Positions 8,118-27,391 of a DNA stretch of 64,000 nucleotides are shown piece by piece. The stretch's first letter is position 1. Every line of letters begins with the position of its first letter. The notes under the pieces were generated by a model. It saw only the letters and a program-made list of their open reading frames with translations. It did no database searches and had not been told where the DNA came from. The translations under genes and the position numbers were made by a program. The DNA comes from Tenacibaculum sp. SG-28. Lineage in GTDB: Bacteria; Bacteroidota; Bacteroidia; Flavobacteriales; Flavobacteriaceae. The stretch spans positions 100,892 through 164,891 of the forward strand of contig NZ_MQVY01000001.1 of the NCBI RefSeq assembly GCF_002954385.1. Reading direction: 5' to 3'.

Positions 8118-9200
8118 TTATCCGTTTATAATTTTCTTTTGATGGTTAATACTTTCTTGATGAATTGCTTTAAACATTTTCAAAACAAATTCTTCACTTA
8201 AACCTCTTTGCTCACCTTCTAAAATCATATTCCCCAAAATTTCATTCCATCTTTTGGATTGCAAGACGGCAACGTTCTTTTCTTTTTTTAATGCTCCAAT
8301 TTTATCTGCTATTTTCATTCGCTTCCCTAGGGTATCGATAAGCTGATTATCCGTGATGTTAATTTGAGCTCTTAAATTATCTAGCGAGTCTCTATAGGTT
8401 TGGTCAGAGGTTGTTTCTTTTCGCACTTTTAAGTCTATCATCATTTGTTTAAGGGTGTCTGGTGTTACTTGTTGTGCAGCATCACTCCAAGCATTGTCTG
8501 GATCTATGTGTGTTTCAATCATTAAACCGTCAAAATTTAAATCAAGAGCGGTTTGTGAAACTTCAAATACCATGTCTCTCTTACCAGTAATATGAGATGG
8601 ATCACAAATTAAGGGCAAATCTGGGAATTTATTTTGAAACTCTATAGCTAGCTGCCATTCTGGAATGTTTCTGTATTTAGATTTTTCATAAGTAGAAAAT
8701 CCTCTGTGAATTGCTCCTAATTTTTTAATCCCCTTAGAGTACAATCGCTCTATTCCTCCAAGCCAAAGTGCAAGATCAGGATTTACTGGGTTTTTAACCA
8801 AAACAATTTTATCGGTACCCTCTAAGGCATCCGCAATTTCTTGCATGATAAATGGGCTCACGGTAGAGCGTGCTCCAATCCATAATAAATCAATGTCGTG
8901 TTCTAATGCTAATTTTACATGATTAGCATTGGCAACTTCTGTACAAGTTTTCATCCCCGTTTCTTCTTTTACCTTTTGAAGCCATTTTAGACCTAATGCT
9001 CCAACACCTTCAAAGTTTCCGGGTCTTGTTCTCGGTTTCCAAATACCAGCGCGAAAATAATTCACATCAGAATCCTTTAGCTCGTGTGCAATTTTAAGCA
9101 CTTGTTCCTCTGTTTCGGCACTGCATGGTCCTGCGATTACCAATGGGTGAGACAAACTCATGTCTTCCAACCATGTTTTTAATTCTTTAGAATTTTCCAT
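8118..9200 (-). CDS. Bifunctional DAHP synthase / chorismate mutase
   Basis: A 360-residue fusion. Residues about 1-260 form a type I-beta 3-deoxy-7-phosphoheptulonate synthase (VIAGPCSAET, KPRTRPGNFEGVG, KNPVNPDLALW, CDPSHITGKRD, METHIDPDNAWSD), which condenses PEP and erythrose 4-phosphate. Residues about 270-360 form an AroQ-type chorismate mutase (LRAQINITDNQLIDTLGKRM, IADKIGALKKEK). The DAHPS-then-mutase order is the one known from Bacteroidota; Bacillus AroA has the reverse order. It is the last gene of the operon, 11 bases after tyrA, so one transcript supplies the entry step, the chorismate branch point and both terminal branches to Phe and Tyr. Confidence 0.95.
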   Translation of the reverse strand: MENSKELKTWLEDMSLSHPLVIAGPCSAETEEQVLKIAHELKDSDVNYFRAGIWKPRTRPGNFEGVGALGLKWLQKVKEETGMKTCTEVANANHVKLALEHDIDLLWIGARSTVSPFIMQEIADALEGTDKIVLVKNPVNPDLALWLGGIERLYSKGIKKLGAIHRGFSTYEKSKYRNIPEWQLAIEFQNKFPDLPLICDPSHITGKRDMVFEVSQTALDLNFDGLMIETHIDPDNAWSDAAQQVTPDTLKQMMIDLKVRKETTSDQTYRDSLDNLRAQINITDNQLIDTLGKRMKIADKIGALKKEKNVAVLQSKRWNEILGNMILEGEQRGLSEEFVLKMFKAIHQESINHQKKIING

Positions 9201-9211
9201 ATGTATTTCTG

Positions 9212-10075
9212 TTAGTTGGTCTCCTCAACGAGAATTCCATTTAATATTTGTTTTATATAGTTTGTATTTTCCATCTCTTGGTAAATCTCAGTGAATCTAG
9301 CGTCTTGTAATAGTTCTTTAAAATGAATTAGATTTAAGATATATTCCTCAAGAGTTTCCATAATGTTTTCTCTGTTTTGTTCAAAAATAGGGGTCCACAT
9401 GGCGGGTGAACTTTTCGCTAGTCTTACTGTAGAGGCAAATCCACTGCCAGCCATGTCAAAGATGTCCCGCTCATTTTTTTCTTTTTCAATAACAGTTTTC
9501 CCCAGCATAAAAGCACTTATATGTGATAAATGAGAAACATAAGCAATGTGTTTGTCATGCGATTTAGCATCCATATAGCGAATCCGCATTCCAAGAGCAG
9601 AAAATAGTTCTAATGCCTTTTCTTGTAATTTGAATGCTGTTTTTTCTACTTCACAAATTATATTTGTCTTCTCTTGATATAAGGTGCTTGTGGCTGCCTT
9701 TGGTCCTGAGAATTCTGTGCCTGCTATAGGGTGTGTCGCTAAAAAATTTCGTCTGTTTTTGTGCTTTTCAATAGCCTTGCATATATCTACTTTAGTTGAG
9801 CCTACGTCAAAGACTAGTGTGTTTTCTTGAATCGAATTTAAAACCTCCAAAGTTAGCTCTAATGCAACATTTACCGGAACTGCAACGATAACCACATCCG
9901 CATTTTTTAATTCTTTTAGCGTTGCTTTTTCATGAATTATTCCTAGGTCTAGGGCTTCTTGTAGGTGGTTTTCATTGCTGTCTATTCCGTATATGGTACA
10001 CGATGCATATGCTTTTTGAATTCCCAAGGCTAAACTACCTCCAATTAATCCAATGCCAATTACATATATATTCAT
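9212..10075 (-). CDS. tyrA: Prephenate dehydrogenase
   Basis: Oxidatively decarboxylates prephenate to 4-hydroxyphenylpyruvate using NAD(P)+, the Tyr branch. The 287-residue protein starts with a Rossmann motif GIGLIGGSLALGI (residues 6-18), and carries the conserved THPIAGTEFSGP segment with the catalytic histidine near residue 115 and the later SHLSHISAF segment. It has no ACT domain. It starts directly after the aminotransferase stop codon and 11 bases before the DAHP synthase gene. Confidence 0.94.
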   Translation of the reverse strand: MNIYVIGIGLIGGSLALGIQKAYASCTIYGIDSNENHLQEALDLGIIHEKATLKELKNADVVIVAVPVNVALELTLEVLNSIQENTLVFDVGSTKVDICKAIEKHKNRRNFLATHPIAGTEFSGPKAATSTLYQEKTNIICEVEKTAFKLQEKALELFSALGMRIRYMDAKSHDKHIAYVSHLSHISAFMLGKTVIEKEKNERDIFDMAGSGFASTVRLAKSSPAMWTPIFEQNRENIMETLEEYILNLIHFKELLQDARFTEIYQEMENTNYIKQILNGILVEETN

Positions 10076-11216
10076 TTAAAATCGTTTTATTGCTTCCGTA
10101 ATTTTTTCTTCTGGAACACACAACGAAAAGCGTATGTATCCTTCTCCTTGACTCCCAAAGATGGTTCCTGGTGCCACGAATATATTTTTCTCATAGAGTA
10201 GTTTGTCTACCATATCTTCCGATTTTTGATCTCCGGGTAATTTAGCCCAAACAAACATTCCACTTGTATTTTTATCGTAAACACAATGTAGTTTATCTGC
10301 CAGTTCAAATATCAATTGTTGTCTCTTTTTATAAATTTCATTTTGTTCTTCAAACCATTTATCGGATAATTCTAATGCTTTAATGGCCCCTTTTTGAATA
10401 CCATAGAACATTCCAGAATCCATTTGTGTTTTTACTTTTAAGACTTCCTGTATAAATGTCTTGTTTCCCAATAACTTCCCTACTCTCCAGCCTGCCATAT
10501 TAAATGACTTACTCAAAGAGTTTAATTCTAGTGCAATATCTTTAGCGCCTTCGATTTGTAAAATACTCTTTGGAGCCTTATTCAAAATAAAACTATACGG
10601 GTTGTCATTAACAATAAGAATATTGTTTCTTTTCCCAAAAGCTATAAGTTTTTTATAGGTGTCTTCGGTTGCTTTTGTACCTGTTGGCATATGTGGATAA
10701 TTTACCCACATTATTTTAACTCTAGATAGGTCTTGTTTTTCAAGTGCTTCAAAATCGGGTTGCCAGTTTGTTTTGGCATCCAATGCATAGAACACTGAAG
10801 TTGCTCCAAGTAGGTTCGTAACAGAGCTGTAAGTTGGATACCCCGGATTAGATGAGTACGGCATCTCCCTCGTTTAAAAAAGCCAAAGAGATGTGCATAA
10901 TACCTTCCTTACTTCCCATTAACGGTAAAATTTCATTCTCTGGATCTACAGTAACCTTATACTTTTCTTTATAAAATTGGGCAACCGCATTTCTGAATTC
11001 TGGTAAGCCTTGGTAACTCTGGTATTTGTGAGCTCCAATATCTAATACGCTTTTTTGAATCGCTTCAATTACAGGGCTTGGCGGAGCTAAGTCTGGGCTA
11101 CCGATACCTATATTTATTATCGGTCTTCCTGTTGCTACGAGGTTTCGAACTTCTTTAAGTTTTTTAGAGAAGTAATATTCCTGAACCGTTTCTAATCTTT
11201 TTGCAAAAGTAATCAT
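10076..11216 (-). CDS. Class I/II pyridoxal-phosphate aminotransferase, probably aromatic (frameshifted)
   Basis: One gene in two frames. The first frame (11216 to 10848) gives the N-terminal part (GIGSPDLAPP, HKYQSYQGLPEFR, LMGSKEGI) and stops after NEGDAVLI. The second frame continues from about 10859 with NPGYPTYSS, VNYPHMPTG and SLSKSFNMAGWRVG, which contains the PLP lysine. The expected junction is VLIPNPGYP, so two bases of a short C run appear to be missing near 10855-10860. Joined length is about 380 residues, normal for the family. Its place between pheA and tyrA implies transamination of phenylpyruvate and 4-hydroxyphenylpyruvate; by sequence alone it resembles aspartate or LL-diaminopimelate aminotransferases. 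The break is probably an assembly error. Confidence 0.85.
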
Positions 11217-12037
11217 GCTCTTCCGTTTTTATATTCTCCGAGTACTTTTAAATTGTTGGCCATAATTTCTAAAATGGCTTTTGCTTTTTTATAATCTTCA
11301 TAGGTATTGAAGGTTACATCGATAAAAAAAGCATATTTCCATGGTGTTTCAATGATGGGAAGTGATTGTATTTTTGTTAAATTTAGTTTACAATCGCTCA
11401 TCACATTAAGAACTGTGGCTAAGCTGCCTCTTTTGTGGTCTAATTCAAAGCGAAGTGATGCTTTGTTTATGTTCTCTACCCCATTTTCAGGCTTTTCTGT
11501 TTGTAGAACTACAAATCTAGTTTCGTTATTTTTTATGGTCTGAATTTCATCTTCGATAATTTCTAAATTGAAAATCTCTGCTGCGATTTTTGGAGCAATA
11601 GCAGCAACACCCTGCAGTTTTTCTTCGGAAATTGTTTTTGCAACGGCTGAGGTGTCTACGTCTTCTACTAATTTTATGGAAGGATATTTTTTGAAAAATT
11701 CTTTACACTGAAGCAACGCCATAGGGTGGGAGCAAACCTCTTTTATATCTTCTATTTTTTGACCAGGTAAAGCCATTAAATGATGGTGTATTGGTAAATA
11801 GTACTCTCCTGATATATGCAAGTTGTTTTTGTCTATTAATGCATAGTTAGGGATAATTGAACCTGCGATGGTATTTTCAATAGCCATTACAGCCTCGTCG
11901 GAAGTGCTACATAACAAACTATTACTTAAAATGTCAAAAGATAAACACTCGTTTATTGTAATATCTTTGCCATAATATTTTTTTGCAACGATATGATGAT
12001 TGCTACCTTGTATTCCTTGAATCGCTATTTTTTTCAT
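11213..12037 (-). CDS. pheA: Prephenate dehydratase with ACT domain
   Basis: Converts prephenate to phenylpyruvate, the Phe branch. Residues about 1-180 are the dehydratase (AIQGIQGSNHHIVAKKYYG at the start, AIENTIAGSI, and the family's TRF motif in NETRFVVLQ). Residues about 190-270 are an ACT domain (HKRGSLATVLNV, LNLTKIQSLPI). The usual Phe-binding ESRP motif reads QSLP here, so feedback inhibition by Phe may differ from the enterobacterial enzyme. There is no chorismate mutase domain; that activity is fused to the DAHP synthase at the end of the operon. The stop overlaps the aminotransferase start by 4 bases. A Phe/Tyr leader peptide and attenuator lie upstream. Confidence 0.94.
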   Translation of the reverse strand: MKKIAIQGIQGSNHHIVAKKYYGKDITINECLSFDILSNSLLCSTSDEAVMAIENTIAGSIIPNYALIDKNNLHISGEYYLPIHHHLMALPGQKIEDIKEVCSHPMALLQCKEFFKKYPSIKLVEDVDTSAVAKTISEEKLQGVAAIAPKIAAEIFNLEIIEDEIQTIKNNETRFVVLQTEKPENGVENINKASLRFELDHKRGSLATVLNVMSDCKLNLTKIQSLPIIETPWKYAFFIDVTFNTYEDYKKAKAILEIMANNLKVLGEYKNGRA

Positions 12038-12045
12038 TTTGGTGT

Positions 12046-12077
12046 AAAAAAAAAGCCTCGATACAATCGAGACTTTA
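12046..12077 (-). promoter_or_regulatory. Attenuator of the pheA operon (terminator with competing antiterminator arm)
   Basis: On the minus strand AGTCTCGAT (12066-12074) pairs with ATCGAGGCT (ending at 12054) around the loop TGT, followed by nine T (12046-12054): an intrinsic terminator that ends 9 bases before the pheA ATG. Its 5' arm lies within TAAAGTCTC (12069-12077), which is exactly complementary to GAGACTTTA (12114-12122) near the end of the leader-peptide frame. The two pairings are mutually exclusive. A ribosome at the leader stop (12100-12102) would mask the upstream segment and allow termination; a ribosome stalled in the Phe/Tyr run would leave it free and give readthrough. Confidence 0.85.
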
Positions 12078-12099
12078 GGTTTATATTATTTTTTGTTAC

Positions 12100-12180
12100 T
12101 TAACAATATGGTATAAAGTCTCTTCTTTTACTAAAAAAGTAAAAGTAAAAATAGAAACCTTGCCATACGTTTTGTAACAT
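12100..12180 (-). CDS. Phe/Tyr-rich leader peptide of the pheA operon
   Basis: A 26-codon frame starting MLQNVWQG, followed by FYFYFYFF at codons 9-16 and ending PYC. Eleven of 26 residues are Phe or Tyr, in a gene that sits just ahead of the operon making Phe and Tyr. An 8-bp hairpin, CTTTTACT (12138-12145) with AGTAAAAG (12125-12132), covers the end of the Phe/Tyr codon run. The layout (leader peptide, alternative pairings, terminator, structural genes) is that of classical ribosome-mediated attenuation. The frame is too short for routine gene calling. Confidence 0.85.
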   Translation of the reverse strand: MLQNVWQGFYFYFYFFSKRRDFIPYC

Positions 12181-12204
12181 TCTTTGTGTTTTTGTTTTCT
12201 AATA

Positions 12205-12235
12205 CAAATCTTAGAAATTAATTTAATACTACCAA
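12205..12235 (-). promoter_or_regulatory. Probable promoter of the pheA operon leader
   Basis: On the minus strand TTG (12233-12235), 19 bp, then TAAGATTTG (12205-12213). This is the Bacteroidota pattern with one extra base between TA and TTTG. Transcription would start near 12197, about 17 bases before the leader-peptide ATG. Confidence 0.4.
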
Positions 12236-12252
12236 ATATTTTTTGTAAAAAA

Positions 12253-14364
12253 TTATTTAACCCCTGAAATCAAGGGTAAAGCATCGGGTAGTTTTCTTTT
12301 AGGGAGCTTACAAGTACCATTGGTACAAACATAAATTAGTGTTTGACCTGAAACATATTTACTTTTCAGCAAAGGAATTGTACTAGTAGTATCGGAAGTA
12401 CCACTGAATATTATATTTGGTATATACAGCTTGTACATCTCTTTTGCAAGCTCAGATACGTTTTCTCCTACTATGGCAACTTCGTAATATGGTAGAGTAT
12501 AACTCATTAACAAGTGAAGCCAATTGGTGAAATTCTGGGGTGATGTTGTTACGCTATTAATCACGTTATTTAGCATTAAAATTGCGAGTTCATTCATTTT
12601 TTTATCAGAGAAATAAAGGCTTAGCTTATGAAGATTTCTCGCCATCTGAGAATTTGAAGAAGGAATCACTCCATCGATTATTGCTGTTTTTTTAGAGATT
12701 AGATCTTTGTCCTCTTTAGAGCTGAAATTAAACATTTTAGTGTTCTCGTCATAAAAGTACTGCATAGCATACTCCATTAATTCTTTTGCAGCCTGCAACC
12801 ATTTTTCCTCTAAGGTAACTTCATACAAAGCAATAAAGGCATCAATAACAGCCGCATAATCTTCTGCATAAGCATTAATGGTACTTTTATTGTCTTTGTA
12901 ATTTCGGTACAACCCACCGTCTTTTTTGAATTGATTTTTTACGATAAACTCCGCATTTTTTATAGCGGTATTTAAATACACTTCTTGGTCAAAAGCACGA
13001 TATGCATCTATAAACCCTTTAAGCATCATGGCGTTCCATGAGGTAAGTACTTTTTTGTCTGTGGCAGGGCGAGATCTTTTACCTCTTATTTCTAGTAATG
13101 CTTTTTTCCAGTTATTTACCTTTTGTTCTAGTTGTGCTTCAGAAATGTTAGCAGCAATCGCCAGCTTATTTTTAGAAGTTGTTCTTTGTAATATGTATTT
13201 GTCGTCTTCCCAATATCCTTTTTTGTCAATACTAAAATAACGTGAAAAAAGAGCAAAATCCTCTTGTAAAATAGCTTCTAGTTCTTCTTTTTTCCATACG
13301 TAAAATGCGCCCTCTTCCATGTCTCCATTTCTATCTTTACTGTCTGCATCAATGGAGGTGTAAAAAGCACCATTACTGCTAGTCATTTCCTGTAAGATAA
13401 AATCCAAGGTCTCTACTGCAACGTTTTTGTATAGTGTTTTCTTTTCTTTTTGATATGCTTTTGCATAGAGGCTAACCAATTGTGCATTATCATACAGCAT
13501 TTTTTCAAAGTGAGGAATCCGCCATTCTTCCTCGATAGTATATCTAGAAAATCCACCTCTAATATGGTCATAAATTCCACCATAAGCCATTTTTGTAAGA
13601 CTAGTGTTTAGGTATTTTTGAAGAACAGTATCTTTGTATTGGTGTTCAAAACGCATTAAAAAATCAAGTGCATTGGGTAATGGGAATTTTTGTTTTCTTA
13701 GGAATCCACCATTGGTATAATCTAGATTTATTTTTAAACTATCTACCGAAGCAGCTAAGATATTTTCGGTGAACTTTGTGGGGGTGTTGTTTGGTTTAAT
13801 GATATTATTTTCTCGGATACCTTTTGTTATTTTTTCTGCGAATTCTTTAAGTTTCCTTGGGTTTTCTTTATACAAAGCAGAAACCTCTTCTAAGATATTT
13901 TTCCATTGTTTTTTGGTGAAGTAGGTTCCTCCAAATATTGGCTTCCCATTTGGCAGTGCAATACAGTTTAGTGGCCAGCCTCCACTTCCAGTCATTAATT
14001 GTACAGCAGTCATATAGGTGTTGTCTACATCTGGTCGTTCTTCTCTATCTACCTTTATATTTATGAAATTTTCATTCATAATTTTTGCAATAGAATCATT
14101 TTCAAAACTTTCTTCCTCCATTACATGACACCAATGGCATGCTGCATACCCTATCGAAATAATGATTAGTTTGTTTTCATTTTTAGCCTGTTCTAATGTT
14201 TTGGGGTTCCAAGCTTTCCAATTCACGGGGTTGTAGGCGTGTTGTAAGAGGTATGGGCTTGTTTCTTGGAGTAATTCGTTCGACTTTTTCGACGGTGATG
14301 TGGTGCAACATAAAAGAGTAAAGTTAATAGCAATTCCTATAAAAAGTTGCTGTAAATATCGCAT
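12253..14364 (-). CDS. Thioredoxin-domain lipoprotein of the DUF255/YyaL family
   Basis: A 703-residue protein. It begins with a lipoprotein signal (FTLLCCTTS, cysteine near residue 19-20). Residues about 30-190 form the DUF255 thioredoxin-like domain, with NPVNWKAWN, AACHWCHVMEEESFE (a CxxC motif) and KVDREERPDVD. The rest is an alpha/alpha six-barrel of the glycosidase type (HPHFEKMLYDNAQL-like IPHFEKMLYDNAQL, TSWNAMMLKGFIDAYRAF). Homologues are broadly conserved (YyaL, SPATA20), but the substrate is unknown, so no reaction is assigned. It has its own promoter (14391-14423). Lipidation suggests an envelope location, whereas many homologues are cytosolic. Confidence 0.9.
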   Translation of the reverse strand: MRYLQQLFIGIAINFTLLCCTTSPSKKSNELLQETSPYLLQHAYNPVNWKAWNPKTLEQAKNENKLIIISIGYAACHWCHVMEEESFENDSIAKIMNENFINIKVDREERPDVDNTYMTAVQLMTGSGGWPLNCIALPNGKPIFGGTYFTKKQWKNILEEVSALYKENPRKLKEFAEKITKGIRENNIIKPNNTPTKFTENILAASVDSLKINLDYTNGGFLRKQKFPLPNALDFLMRFEHQYKDTVLQKYLNTSLTKMAYGGIYDHIRGGFSRYTIEEEWRIPHFEKMLYDNAQLVSLYAKAYQKEKKTLYKNVAVETLDFILQEMTSSNGAFYTSIDADSKDRNGDMEEGAFYVWKKEELEAILQEDFALFSRYFSIDKKGYWEDDKYILQRTTSKNKLAIAANISEAQLEQKVNNWKKALLEIRGKRSRPATDKKVLTSWNAMMLKGFIDAYRAFDQEVYLNTAIKNAEFIVKNQFKKDGGLYRNYKDNKSTINAYAEDYAAVIDAFIALYEVTLEEKWLQAAKELMEYAMQYFYDENTKMFNFSSKEDKDLISKKTAIIDGVIPSSNSQMARNLHKLSLYFSDKKMNELAILMLNNVINSVTTSPQNFTNWLHLLMSYTLPYYEVAIVGENVSELAKEMYKLYIPNIIFSGTSDTTSTIPLLKSKYVSGQTLIYVCTNGTCKLPKRKLPDALPLISGVK

Positions 14365-15706: not shown

Positions 15707-15780
15707 CGGTCTGGACGGGACTCGAACCCGCGACCCCATGCGTGACAGGCATGTATTCTAACCAGCTGAACTACCAAACC
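15707..15780 (-). tRNA. tRNA-Asp (GTC)
   Basis: A 74-base cloverleaf on the minus strand: acceptor GGTTTGG with CCAGACC, D arm AGTTCAGCTGGTTAGA, anticodon loop CTGTCAC with anticodon GTC, and T arm GGGTTCGAGTCCC. The discriminator base is G and CCA is not encoded. It is identical to the copy at 15872-15945. Confidence 0.97.
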
Positions 15781-15871: not shown

Positions 15872-15945
15872 CGGTCTGGACGGGACTCGAACCCGCGACC
15901 CCATGCGTGACAGGCATGTATTCTAACCAGCTGAACTACCAAACC
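15872..15945 (-). tRNA. tRNA-Asp (GTC), second copy
   Basis: Identical in all 74 bases to the tRNA at 15707-15780, with the same short flanking bases at both ends. It lies upstream of the other copy on the minus strand with a 91-base spacer that holds a separate -7 element. It has no hairpin terminator of its own, so readthrough into the second copy is likely. Confidence 0.97.
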
Positions 15946-17539: not shown

Positions 17540-17551
17540 CAAGCTCAAAAC

Positions 17552-17601
17552 ATGAGGAAAAATTTGTCTGATTGCAACCTCCATAAAAAATGCTAAAGCA
17601 G
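17552..17601 (+). ncRNA. Candidate SAM-II-like riboswitch in the metK leader
   Basis: The element has the H-type pseudoknot layout of SAM-II. P1 is ATGAGG (17552-17557) with CCT-C-CAT (17578-17584, one bulged C). The P1 loop ends ATTGCAA directly before the 3' arm. After it comes an A-rich strand and GCTAAA (17592-17597). P2 would be CTG (17568-17570) with CAG (17599-17601), and ATT (17571-17573) with AAT (17589-17591). The ATTGCAA before the P1 3' arm and the following ATAAA...GCTAAA are the same blocks, in the same order, as I recall from the structurally known metX SAM-II aptamer. MetK makes SAM, so SAM feedback is sensible. Recognised by eye only. Confidence 0.55.
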
Positions 17602-17666
17602 TATTCTACTTCTTTTTGCAGCAATCGTAGCAAGTTTTTTGGGTATTAAATAAAAAGAAATAAATT

Positions 17667-18920
17667 ATGCCATATTTTTTTACTTCGGAAAGTGTTTCTG
17701 AAGGTCATCCAGATAAAGTAGCAGATCAAATATCAGACGCATTAATTGATAATTTTTTGGCTTTTGACGCATCTTCTAAAGTTGCTTGTGAAACCTTAGT
17801 AACAACCGGTCAGGTAGTGCTTGCTGGAGAAGTGAAATCTAATACGTATTTAGATGTTCAGAAAATTGCCAGAGATGTGATTAACAAGATAGGATATACC
17901 AAAGGAGAGTATATGTTTGATGGAAATTCTTGTGGTGTTCTATCTGCTATACACGAACAATCAGACGATATAAATAGGGGAGTAGACAAGGGAATTCAAG
18001 AGGAACAAGGAGCAGGAGATCAAGGAATGATGTTTGGTTATGCTACTAGAGAAACTGAAAATTACATGCCACTTGCTTTAGATCTTTCCCATCTATTACT
18101 AAAAGAATTAGCCGCGCTTAGGAGAGAGTCTGACCAAATTACTTATTTGCGACCTGATGCTAAAAGTCAGGTTACTATTGAGTACTCTGACGATAACATT
18201 CCATTGCGTATAGAAGCAATTGTTTTATCGACACAACACGATGATTTTGCCTCGGAAAAGGAAATGCTTGAAACGATTGCAAAGGACGTTCAAAATATTT
18301 TGATTCCAAGAGTTATTGCAAAGCTAAACCCTCAAATTCAAAAACTTTTTAATGCCGATATCAAATATCATATCAACCCTACAGGAAAATTTGTAATCGG
18401 AGGACCTCACGGGGATACCGGGTTAACAGGGAGAAAAATTATTGTGGATACCTACGGTGGTAAAGGAGCGCATGGCGGTGGTGCTTTCTCTGGAAAAGAT
18501 CCTAGTAAGGTAGATCGTTCCGCAGCATATGCAACTAGACATATTGCTAAAAATCTTGTGGCTGCTGGAGTAGCCGATGAGATTTTGGTACAAGTTTCTT
18601 ATGCCATAGGTGTTGCAGAGCCAATGGGGATTTTTGTAGATACCTATGGAACCGCAAAAGTTGGGCTACAGGACGGAGAAATAGCTCAAAAAGTAGCTGC
18701 TATTTTCGACATGCGCCCCCATGCTATCGAAACGCGATTAAAACTGCGAACACCAATGTATAGCGAAACTGCTGCCTATGGTCATATGGGTAGGAAAAAT
18801 GAAATTGTAACAAAAACGTTTATCCAGCCAAACGGAGAAATCAAAACTTTAGATGTAGAGTTGTTTACATGGGAAAAGTTGAATTACGTAGAAGAAGTGA
18901 AGGCTGCGTTTGCAATTTAA
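17667..18920 (+). CDS. metK: S-adenosylmethionine synthetase
   Basis: Makes S-adenosylmethionine from methionine and ATP; a homotetramer in the cytosol. The 417-residue protein has the N-terminal [15 protein letters not shown] motif, [22 protein letters not shown] (the conserved hexapeptide GAGDQG), and the P-loop-like [19 protein letters not shown]. Length is slightly above the usual 380-400, as in other Bacteroidota. It has its own promoter, a leader resembling a SAM-II riboswitch and a strong terminator, so it is a single-gene unit. Confidence 0.98.
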
Positions 18921-25625: not shown

Positions 25626-26003
25626 TTAATTAATTCGCCAAGGCGGATTTTTTCTGTTCTTTCCTGCGGTGTATAGTATTAATTTATTGCCGTCAGGATC
25701 AAGTAATCTTGCCTCTCTCCAAAGCCAAGGTTGATCGGTTGGGAACATTGTAAATTGCATGCCTTTCTCTTGTAATGCGTCTACCAATGCATCTAAATTT
25801 TCATTTTCAAAATAGATACTTGTTTTGCTTTCTTCAGGAATATCCTTTACCGCATGAATAGAAAAAGTACTATCGCCTTCGGGCAAAGCGAAACGTGCAT
25901 ATTTTGGGCTTGCATCAACGATGAGTTGCAAGCCGAGGGTAGTGTAAAATACTATGGATTGTTTTACATTTTTAGACGGTACGGTAACTTGATTTAATCG
26001 CAT
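25626..26003 (-). CDS. VOC-family (glyoxalase/bleomycin-resistance fold) protein
   Basis: A 125-residue protein of the vicinal oxygen chelate superfamily: two beta-alpha-beta-beta-beta units, recognisable from MRLNQVTVPSKNVKQSIVFYTTLGLQLIV at the start and the closing RLLDPDGNKLILYTAGKNR segment with its metal-ligand region. The start overlaps the 3' end of the MFS gene by 32 bases, so both are on one transcript. The substrate is unknown. Linkage to an efflux-type transporter would be compatible with a role in resistance or detoxification, but that is only inference. Confidence 0.87.
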   Translation of the reverse strand: MRLNQVTVPSKNVKQSIVFYTTLGLQLIVDASPKYARFALPEGDSTFSIHAVKDIPEESKTSIYFENENLDALVDALQEKGMQFTMFPTDQPWLWREARLLDPDGNKLILYTAGKNRKNPPWRIN

Positions 26004-27204
26004 TTTTCTCTGTTTTTAATTGAATAATTAGTAGTAAAAAGACAAACATTCCTAGTACAGCTAGTAGTGTCATGATATTCCATGTGATGCCATATCCATA
26101 GGTGTTTATCAATTGCATTCCTGAATTATGTCCGAATATATGTGCTATTGAAAACGCAATGCTGTAGTATGCCATATATTCTCCTTGTTTTCCCTTTTTT
26201 GCTCTGCTGATTACAAAAGCATTGGAAAAAGGAAAGGCAATCATTTCTCCGATAGTCATTAGCAACATTCCAACTATTACTATACCGATGTAACCGCCAA
26301 TGTTCAATATTAAAAAACTCACCCCCGTTAATAGTATTCCAAAGAAAATTAATTTCACTGGAGATACTTTAGTGGTCTCCAACCATTTGATTAAAGGCAT
26401 TTCTAGGAGGAAAATTAAGAATCCATTCATTCCCATGAGGAGTCCTATTTCAAACTCTGAAAGTGTACATATTTCTTTGTAATATAGAGGTATCGTTGAA
26501 AAATACTGCAAGAAAATAAAACCAAAAAGAAACATCCCTACAAAGAAGATCCAGAATGCCTTATCTGAAAAAATTGAAATTGGATCTTTTGTTTCTATGT
26601 CGTCTAAAACTTTTACTTTTTTAGGATGCAATACTTTCTTCAACAGAAGTGTAGCCAGTAAACAAGTTACTCCATCAATCCAAAATAGGCCGTCGTAGCC
26701 AATACTAGTTATTATGAGCCCACCAATTGCGGGTCCTGCAGAAAAACCAAGATTTATAGCCAAACGGATTAACGTTACTGATCGGGTTTTATTTTCTGGC
26801 TTACTGTAGGTATTTAAGGCCACAAACATTGCTGGTCTAAAGGTATCTGCGACCAGCATTACTAAGAATATTCCAATACAAAACCCCAGAACTGAATGTA
26901 CAAATTGAAGGCCAATAAATAGTATTCCTGTTAGGAGTAAACTTGTATTCATTACTTTGTAGAATCCTATTTTGTCGGTTAATTTTCCACCCAACCAAGA
27001 GCCAATTACCGAACCAAGTCCAAAACAGGTCATGATCCACCCGACATTTTTGATAGTGAAGTTTAAATTTTCGATAAGATAAAGTGATAAAAATGGTATT
27101 ACCATAGTTCCCGCTCTATTGATTAGAGTAATTAAGGCTAGCCACCATACCTCCTCAGAAAGTCCTTTGAAGGTATTTGTATAGTTTTGGTATAGTGTTT
27201 TCAT
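25972..27204 (-). CDS. MFS transporter
   Basis: A 410-residue inner-membrane major facilitator with about 12 hydrophobic segments. The motif-A-like loop GSWLGGKLTDKIGFYKV lies near residues 68-84 after the second helix, and the antiporter-like GPAIGGLI segment lies in helix 5, which suggests a drug/proton-antiporter-like exporter. The substrate is unknown. The leader is unusual: a promoter at 27392-27423, a long imperfect hairpin at 27303-27349 and an intrinsic terminator at 27233-27261 that ends about 30 bases before the ATG. The VOC gene downstream overlaps it by 32 bases. Confidence 0.9.
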   Translation of the reverse strand: MKTLYQNYTNTFKGLSEEVWWLALITLINRAGTMVIPFLSLYLIENLNFTIKNVGWIMTCFGLGSVIGSWLGGKLTDKIGFYKVMNTSLLLTGILFIGLQFVHSVLGFCIGIFLVMLVADTFRPAMFVALNTYSKPENKTRSVTLIRLAINLGFSAGPAIGGLIITSIGYDGLFWIDGVTCLLATLLLKKVLHPKKVKVLDDIETKDPISIFSDKAFWIFFVGMFLFGFIFLQYFSTIPLYYKEICTLSEFEIGLLMGMNGFLIFLLEMPLIKWLETTKVSPVKLIFFGILLTGVSFLILNIGGYIGIVIVGMLLMTIGEMIAFPFSNAFVISRAKKGKQGEYMAYYSIAFSIAHIFGHNSGMQLINTYGYGITWNIMTLLAVLGMFVFLLLIIQLKTEKNAIKSSYRTV

Positions 27205-27232
27205 TTCGTTTGTTGGTTAGTTTTCTAAAAAT

Positions 27233-27261
27233 AAAAAGTCCGACAGTAACGTCGGACTTTT
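27233..27261 (-). terminator. Intrinsic terminator inside the MFS gene leader (candidate attenuator)
   Basis: GTCCGAC (27238-27244) pairs with GTCGGAC (27251-27257) around a 6-base loop, with a T run on the minus strand. It lies between the promoter at 27392-27423 and the MFS start at 27204. If the promoter is right it must be bypassed for MFS expression, which suggests conditional termination. It could also end readthrough from the cyclase gene at 27510. Confidence 0.75.
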
Positions 27262-27302
27262 AAGAATTGTTATAATTTATTTTTTTATAGTTAAAATATA
27301 TC

Positions 27303-27349
27303 AACAGCCCGGATGTGTTTCATTCTATATGAAAAACATCTGTACTGTT
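27303..27349 (-). ncRNA. Structured leader hairpin upstream of the MFS gene
   Basis: On the minus strand three stem blocks stack: AACAG/CTGTT, a 4x4 internal loop (TACA opposite CGGG), GATGT/ACATC, a single T-C mismatch, and TTTCAT/ATGAAA closed by ATAGA. The pairing accounts for 16 base pairs in 47 bases. It lies between a good promoter and a terminator in a 305-base gap without genes (27205-27509), and may be the sensing part of a regulatory leader. It does not match a riboswitch class I know. Confidence 0.5.
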
Positions 27350-27391
27350 TGCTATATGTATTTAAAATCGTCATTGTATTTATTAGTGTAT

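Follow-up and report, generated by a model that had tools for sequence, protein, structure and literature searches.

The window, a stretch of 64,000 nucleotides from Tenacibaculum sp. SG-28, carries on its minus strand a presumed operon headed by pheA, and the DNA ahead of pheA holds a Phe/Tyr leader frame, a terminator and mutually complementary strands. This arrangement, which a first-pass annotation had put forward, is real and comprises the following features.

12205..12235, minus strand: promoter-like site, with TTG at 12235-12233, a 20-nt spacer and AAGATTTG at 12212-12205; a consensus match only.
12180-12100, minus strand: leader ORF of 26 codons plus stop, MLQNVWQGFYFYFYFFSKRRDFIPYC, from the ORF translation.
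12153..12161, minus strand: segment 1, a strand of the protector hairpin, lying where the Phe/Tyr run begins; its predicted partner is segment 2 (MFE structure).
12122-12114, minus strand: segment 2, the 5' strand of the antiterminator, GAGACTTTA, in the last third of the leader ORF, near its 3' end.
12077-12069, minus strand: segment 3, the shared strand, TAAAGTCTC, whose partner is segment 2 in the antiterminator and segment 4 in the terminator.
12076-12046, minus strand: intrinsic terminator, an 11-pair stem (12076-12052) including one G-U, with a 3-nt loop and nine T (12054-12046).
11213..12037, minus strand: pheA, for prephenate dehydratase, at the head of the operon presumed to be controlled (NF008865 at 186 bits, cut-off 219; PF00800 over its cut-off).
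10076..11216, minus strand: LL-diaminopimelate-type aminotransferase (NF006756 is the best match for both of its pieces, under cut-off).
9212..10075, minus strand: tyrA, prephenate dehydrogenase (NF006307 at 383 bits, above the cut-off of 295).
8118..9200, minus strand: DAHP synthase / chorismate mutase (NF009239 at 191 bits, below the cut-off of 279).

The order pheA, aminotransferase, tyrA and DAHP synthase/chorismate mutase is the one first annotated and is borne out by profile matches, three of the four lying below curated cut-offs. Operon content could be read in 167 loci that were long enough, out of 210 drawn from two overlapping samples (130 and 80, described below). All four genes are present in 154 of these; the aminotransferase and tyrA are both missing from 10, tyrA from 2, and a single locus has pheA only. 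In the window itself the aminotransferase is broken at about 10850 into overlapping minus-strand frames (10848-11216 and 10076-10864), which represents either an assembly error or a fresh pseudogene. The gene occupies a single frame in the sister species (L005) and in all 156 of the 167 loci that have it in the operon, 6 of which show an additional, weaker match elsewhere on the opposite strand.

The leader frame agrees with the 26-codon Phe/Tyr frame originally described, and its eight Phe/Tyr codons stand in an unbroken row. Its stop lies 62 nt from pheA, with the terminator in between, and here some details needed correction: the stem has 11 pairs and not the 9 reported, and 8 bases, not 9, separate the T run from the pheA ATG (12037), while the nine T themselves are as annotated. 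The perfect complementarity claimed for segments 2 and 3 is exact, and segment 3 overlaps the 5' arm of the terminator. An additional CTTTTACT/AGTAAAAG hairpin over the end of the Phe/Tyr run had also been proposed; it is present (12145-12138 with 12132-12125), though not as a separate element, since in the predicted fold of the window it sits inside a larger stem in which the antiterminator strand is paired with the Phe/Tyr codons, and it is, on this model, part of the protector (1:2) pairing. When the 250-nt region upstream in the window was dinucleotide-shuffled 2000 times, eight Phe/Tyr in eight codons never arose and the maximum was 7, reached once. The 141-nt stretch from the leader ATG to the T run folds with a z of -6.9, none of 200 shuffles being equally stable.

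Our comparison with relatives drew on 149 Flavobacteriaceae genomes, nearly one per genus, in 130 of which PheA was found by protein search. To pass the automated test, the DNA upstream of pheA had to hold a terminator-like hairpin and a leader frame opening with ATG in which some 8-codon stretch has 5 or more Phe/Tyr; of the 130 loci, all read upstream, 123 pass, and in some rows (e.g. L003 and L057) the scoring script picked a chance pairing. By eye, the element can also be recognised in L126, where the hairpin is imperfect, and in L059, where the contig end cuts the locus, and five genomes (L029, L079, L104, L114 and L121) have no Phe/Tyr leader with terminator. Under a stricter hairpin rule 116 of 129 genomes pass (L059 was excluded as too short), compared with 0 of 645 dinucleotide shuffles. 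A named set of 80 loci, which overlaps the first sample and includes Tenacibaculum, Polaribacter, Lutibacter, Kordia, Winogradskyella and others, gave 77 passes. On this comparison the element is common in the family and not special to Tenacibaculum sp. SG-28.

The surroundings of the leader allow a more trivial reading to be considered, in which the hairpin is the terminator of the gene upstream and the Phe/Tyr frame has arisen by chance as a T-rich ORF. The window alone would permit this, as the upstream gene (12253-14364) is co-directional and has its stop at 12253. In relatives, however, the closest long frame upstream (at least 110 codons between stops) is divergent in 101 of 120 cases, 3 of the 123 loci being too short to judge, so that the terminator there is not the 3' end of that frame. 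Leader and hairpin stay with pheA, the two never appeared together in the shuffles above, and a promoter-like site lies between the upstream gene and the leader; we therefore rejected this explanation as extremely improbable. Bacteroidota promoters follow the pattern TTG-N17-23-TAnnTTTG. The site in the window scores 8 of 9 against it and that of the sister species 9 of 9, and scores of at least 8 are found for 101 of the 123 family leaders compared with 205 of 1230 mononucleotide shuffles. In the window the site ends 24 nt before the leader ATG, and 68 of the 101 end 10-19 nt before theirs. Given its position, a transcription start downstream of 12180 seems unlikely.

We then considered which amino acids the leader might report on. 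Phe codons and Tyr codons both occur in all 123 family leaders. Codons -3, -4 and -5 from the end of the run, which the run definition leaves free, are Phe or Tyr in 121, 120 and 105 of the 123; of the Phe/Tyr codons within the last 14 codons to the run end, Tyr accounts on average for 0.39. It may be that the same attenuator is essentially a sensor of Phe, the Tyr codons being tolerated filler. The three codons closest to the antiterminator (-1, -2 and -3) are mostly Phe (103, 101 and 98 of 123), and 12 operons lack tyrA (10 of them the aminotransferase as well); counting the pheA-only locus there are 13 loci without tyrA, 11 of which have a scored leader, in each case with Phe as well as Tyr, so that leaders carry Tyr whether or not tyrA belongs to the operon. 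Against this reading, Tyr is missing from no leader and occupies codon -4 in 87 of 123, and the full operon serving both amino acids is the rule (the 154 of 167 loci given above, from two overlapping samples). We consider a Phe-only sensor unlikely, and sensing of Tyr as well as Phe would be the likely arrangement. A precedent for Tyr attenuation is provided by the aroF attenuator, listed in a table as sensing tyr-tRNA (PMC2659441).

The pairing of segments 2 and 3 could be examined across the family by an unaligned test, chosen because a MAFFT alignment shifted GGGAC-type sequences by one base. For each leader the most G+C-rich 6-nt core of the terminator 5' arm was taken and its complement sought after the Phe/Tyr run. 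Segment 2 matched the leader's own segment 3 core at 5.5 of 6 or better in 89 of 123 leaders, compared with 408 of 2460 pairings with swapped cores and 43 of 2460 with shuffled regions. At 5 of 6 or better the controls are less clean (113 of 123 for own cores, as against 944 of 2460 for swapped cores and 267 of 2460 for shuffled regions), and 10 of the 123 leaders fall below that level. There are 22 distinct cores and 67 distinct strand triples, 57 of the latter with segments 2 and 3 matching at 5 or better, some of these cores and triples differing in register only (e.g. GTCTCG and AGTCTC). The terminator itself, aligned for 84 of the 123 leaders hand-picked for diversity, has 94.1% of its cells paired and changes on both sides in 8 of 10 pairs, and none of 500 shuffles scored as high. 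A compensated change is seen even within the genus, where the GAGACTTT/AAAGTCTC of the window is GAGGCTTT/AAAGCCTC in the relative L288 and a leader residue is altered too; the congeners L172 and L190 have an A-C mismatch in the segment 2:3 pairing. Across the leaders compared, the putative antiterminator strand and both terminator arms change together. The comparison of leaders that the first-pass annotation had proposed for Flavobacteriaceae has in this way turned out in its favour, with a short, Phe/Tyr-dense frame kept and compensatory changes in both the terminator and the antiterminator.

The position of segment 2 is also constrained. In the spacing test it was sought 4-19 nt after the run, with ties assigned to 11, and in a few leaders (e.g. 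L119) the script picked the wrong run or no real segment 2. Among the 113 of 123 leaders scoring at least 5 of 6, segment 2 starts a mean of 10.7 nt (SD 1.3) past the last Phe/Tyr codon, compared with an SD of 5.6 for its distance to the stop codon, and therefore it is the distance from the control codons, and not from the stop codon, that has been kept constant. At an offset of 11 nt, 62 of 123 own cores reach at least 5 where 17 would be expected from the cores of other species; at 10 nt there are only 24 compared with 16 expected. Given the size of the ribosome footprint, such a constant distance would be expected if a ribosome whose A site holds the last control codon had its front edge just before segment 2. 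When the stretch from segment 2 to segment 4 is folded at equilibrium, the terminator is predicted for 102 of 123 leaders and the antiterminator for 21, and because the terminator mostly prevails at equilibrium, the switch would have to be kinetic.

The predicted protector pairing of segments 1 and 2 could likewise be followed across the family. At least 4 of the 6 nt of the segment 2 core are predicted to pair upstream in 106 of 123 leaders, compared with 52% of shuffles, and the upstream pairing of segment 2 survives in 75% of random synonymous recodings. The predicted upstream pairs are concentrated, 539 of 570 falling within the 30 nt that end with the Phe/Tyr run. When the synonymous Phe and Tyr codons were shuffled within each leader, the natural order proved to favour the predicted 1:2 fold in 100 of 123; shuffling weakened the fold by 1.3 kcal/mol on average over all 123 leaders (Wilcoxon p of about 9e-16, related species being treated as independent). 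Codon order is, then, tuned to the predicted hairpin.

These observations also bear on whether the leader might act through its peptide, as a TnaC-like nascent-peptide arrest switch in which free aromatic amino acids are sensed via the exit tunnel and not through tRNA charging. The aromatic run is long, and Trp is found in 84 of 123 family leaders in addition to Phe and Tyr, which would suit such a switch. The order and flanks of the residues vary, however, while what is conserved is the Phe/Tyr content, the spacing and the pairing of the RNA, and the predicted RNA fold depends on synonymous codon order; we regard peptide arrest as very unlikely.

Taken together, these data point to control of the pheA-aminotransferase-tyrA-DAHPS/mutase operon by a ribosome-mediated transcription attenuator that would read the supply of Phe and Tyr, a reading to which we give a probability of roughly 0.93. 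The traits of the attenuator class are present in the sequence: a frame of end-product codons, an intrinsic terminator, an antiterminator exclusive of it and a predicted protector hairpin. Transcription would start just ahead of the leader. With charged tRNA-Phe or tRNA-Tyr in short supply, the ribosome would stall in the Phe/Tyr run with its leading edge just short of segment 2, which would be left free to pair with segment 3, blocking the terminator and allowing the operon to be transcribed. When Phe and Tyr are ample, the ribosome would reach the stop codon and cover segment 2, so that segments 3 and 4 could form the terminator before pheA; should there be no translation, segments 1 and 2 would pair and termination would follow by default. 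We infer the stalling of the ribosome and the response to starvation from these features, and the attenuator interpretation of the first-pass annotation is supported by comparison.

Other devices could in principle make use of the same terminator. The leader might be coupled to pheA by reinitiation, and leader genes near start codons have been proposed to favour this, the distance peaking at 11-14 bp in Bacteroidetes according to one report (PMC4833913); the leader stop here lies much further from pheA, at the 62 nt given above, with the terminator between. A T-box or riboswitch acting on the terminator would be a further option, but no covariance model for either matches upstream of pheA at gathering, and the only riboswitch match in the window at that level is a SAM-II. 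Both reinitiation and such an RNA sensor would seem remote prospects. The SAM-II riboswitch (RF01726, 68.7 bits) lies at 17548-17606 on the plus strand, ahead of a 417-aa frame at 17667 whose sequence resembles S-adenosylmethionine synthase.

The mechanism favoured here, ribosome-mediated attenuation, is itself known, and its textbook cases come from Proteobacteria. The enterobacterial pheA leader encodes a Phe-rich peptide and places an antiterminator and a terminator before pheA, and that of E. coli is Phe-rich without Tyr. The flavobacterial element differs in having Tyr codons in every scored leader and in an operon that usually extends to tyrA and DAHP synthase. The Phe leader peptide family of Rfam (RF01859, Phe_leader) gives the top Rfam score for 12030-12300, with an alignment spanning the whole model; at 27.3 bits (E 0.0099) it falls below the gathering score of 55, so that the window element is not a member. 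The Bacteroidetes leader RF01692 (Bacteroid-trp) belongs instead to the Trp operon and has Trp codons, and it gave no match to 12030-12300 at E up to 10.

The most relevant precedent is a 2021 report on F. psychrophilum (PMC9723704), in the main text of which structured 5' elements are described upstream of pheA and hisG, conserved in other Flavobacteriaceae genera, that of pheA without an Rfam match, together with strong indications that amino acid operons are preceded by leader-peptide attenuators. Given this report, the idea of attenuation is already in print for Flavobacteriaceae. The F. psychrophilum pheA element shares gene and family with ours and may be the same element; its sequence, the amino acids sensed and its pairings are absent from the main text, where pheA is not named among the attenuated operons either. 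What is new here is the anatomy, the joint Phe and Tyr content, the covariation and the reach of the pheA attenuator. A single leader sensing both amino acids had been flagged as notable for Bacteroidota: its Phe/Tyr character holds up, but RF01692 and the F. psychrophilum element are precedents for leaders of this kind in the phylum. Our search of the openly accessible literature found no Bacteroidota Phe/Tyr leader and none of these four features, the reach beyond the family included. A looser parallel is offered by the short ORFs reminiscent of leader peptides noted in 5' UTRs of B. thetaiotaomicron (PMC7366714), and a 2010 survey states that to its authors' knowledge no case outside Proteobacteria and Actinobacteria preceded their own from Firmicutes (PMC2965389).

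Comparable leaders occur elsewhere in the same genome. Before trpE (locus L274) there is MTKQNNIWWWNSLK with a terminator-like hairpin, scoring 45.8 bits to RF01692 (gathering 49). Before hisG (locus L273) there is a His run, MITIQLHHHHHHTCTQAS, again with a terminator-like hairpin; the His operon leader of Rfam (RF00514) likewise combines a control-codon run, of His codons instead, with a terminator, and the hisG leader matches it below threshold (26.8 of 49 bits, E 0.35). We found no similar leader before ilvD or the second PF04715 gene of this genome. With His and Trp leaders alongside that of pheA, leader attenuation looks like a general mode here.

There is no convincing second copy of the pheA element in the genome, the next model match (34.8 bits, E 0.019) lying before an MFS transporter. 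At this transporter (25972-27204, minus) an attenuator-like element of a different kind occupies 27227-27374 (minus), with a short ORF, MTILNTYSKQYRCFSYRMKHIRAVDIF, that has no amino acid run and a hairpin, AAAAGTCCGACG..TGTCGGACTTTT. A near-invariant hairpin and the short ORF are kept in eight aligned congeners (L320 by eye), and the end of the ORF (CGGGCT) can pair with the 5' arm of the hairpin in the window, L315 and L316, the pairing in the others being different or weak. By analogy with drug-inducible leaders, this may perhaps be a ribosome-stall switch of the transporter. The window also contains two tRNA genes (15707-15780 and 15872-15945, minus) that have equal Rfam scores, start 165 bases apart and are both overlapped by a repetitive plus-strand frame; they are perhaps a tandem duplication.

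Beyond the family, a search of the class found a PheA match in 41 of 149 genomes, 37 of these outside Flavobacteriaceae, and a PF00800 match in only 33 of 119. In view of these low rates the class figures are restricted to genomes with a PheA match. An aromatic leader, defined by 5 or more Phe, Tyr or Trp codons among 8, precedes pheA in 25 of the 37 (the shuffle controls given above apply to the family set), and no leader was found before pheA in the other 12. All 25 leaders hold both Phe and Tyr and 8 hold Trp; a loosely scored three-strand arrangement is present in 23, a few of them marginal (e.g. L280 and L282). In a search of the order, 13 of the loci matched were read and leader and hairpin found in 8, including 5 from other families (L302-L304, L307 and L313). 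The terminator is absent at pheA in the 5 other loci (L308-L312), which come from strongly reduced genomes of 0.6 Mb, possibly those of insect endosymbionts, and a dense ORF is present in L310 alone. Whether the attenuator is ancient, extends across much of the class Bacteroidia and sums the aromatic amino acids, with leader-peptide attenuation as the Bacteroidota default for these pathways, is a proposition that we hold to be evenly balanced.

Bacteroidota ribosomes mostly ignore Shine-Dalgarno sequences, and here a single element that would depend on the position of the ribosome is found with nearly fixed geometry in the majority of the genera sampled from a large family, as well as in other families of the class. 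Its dozens of natural compensated variants open the position of the ribosome, the codon content and the pairing of the RNA to direct testing, and the element provides both a covariance model and what may be a natural sensor for more than one amino acid.
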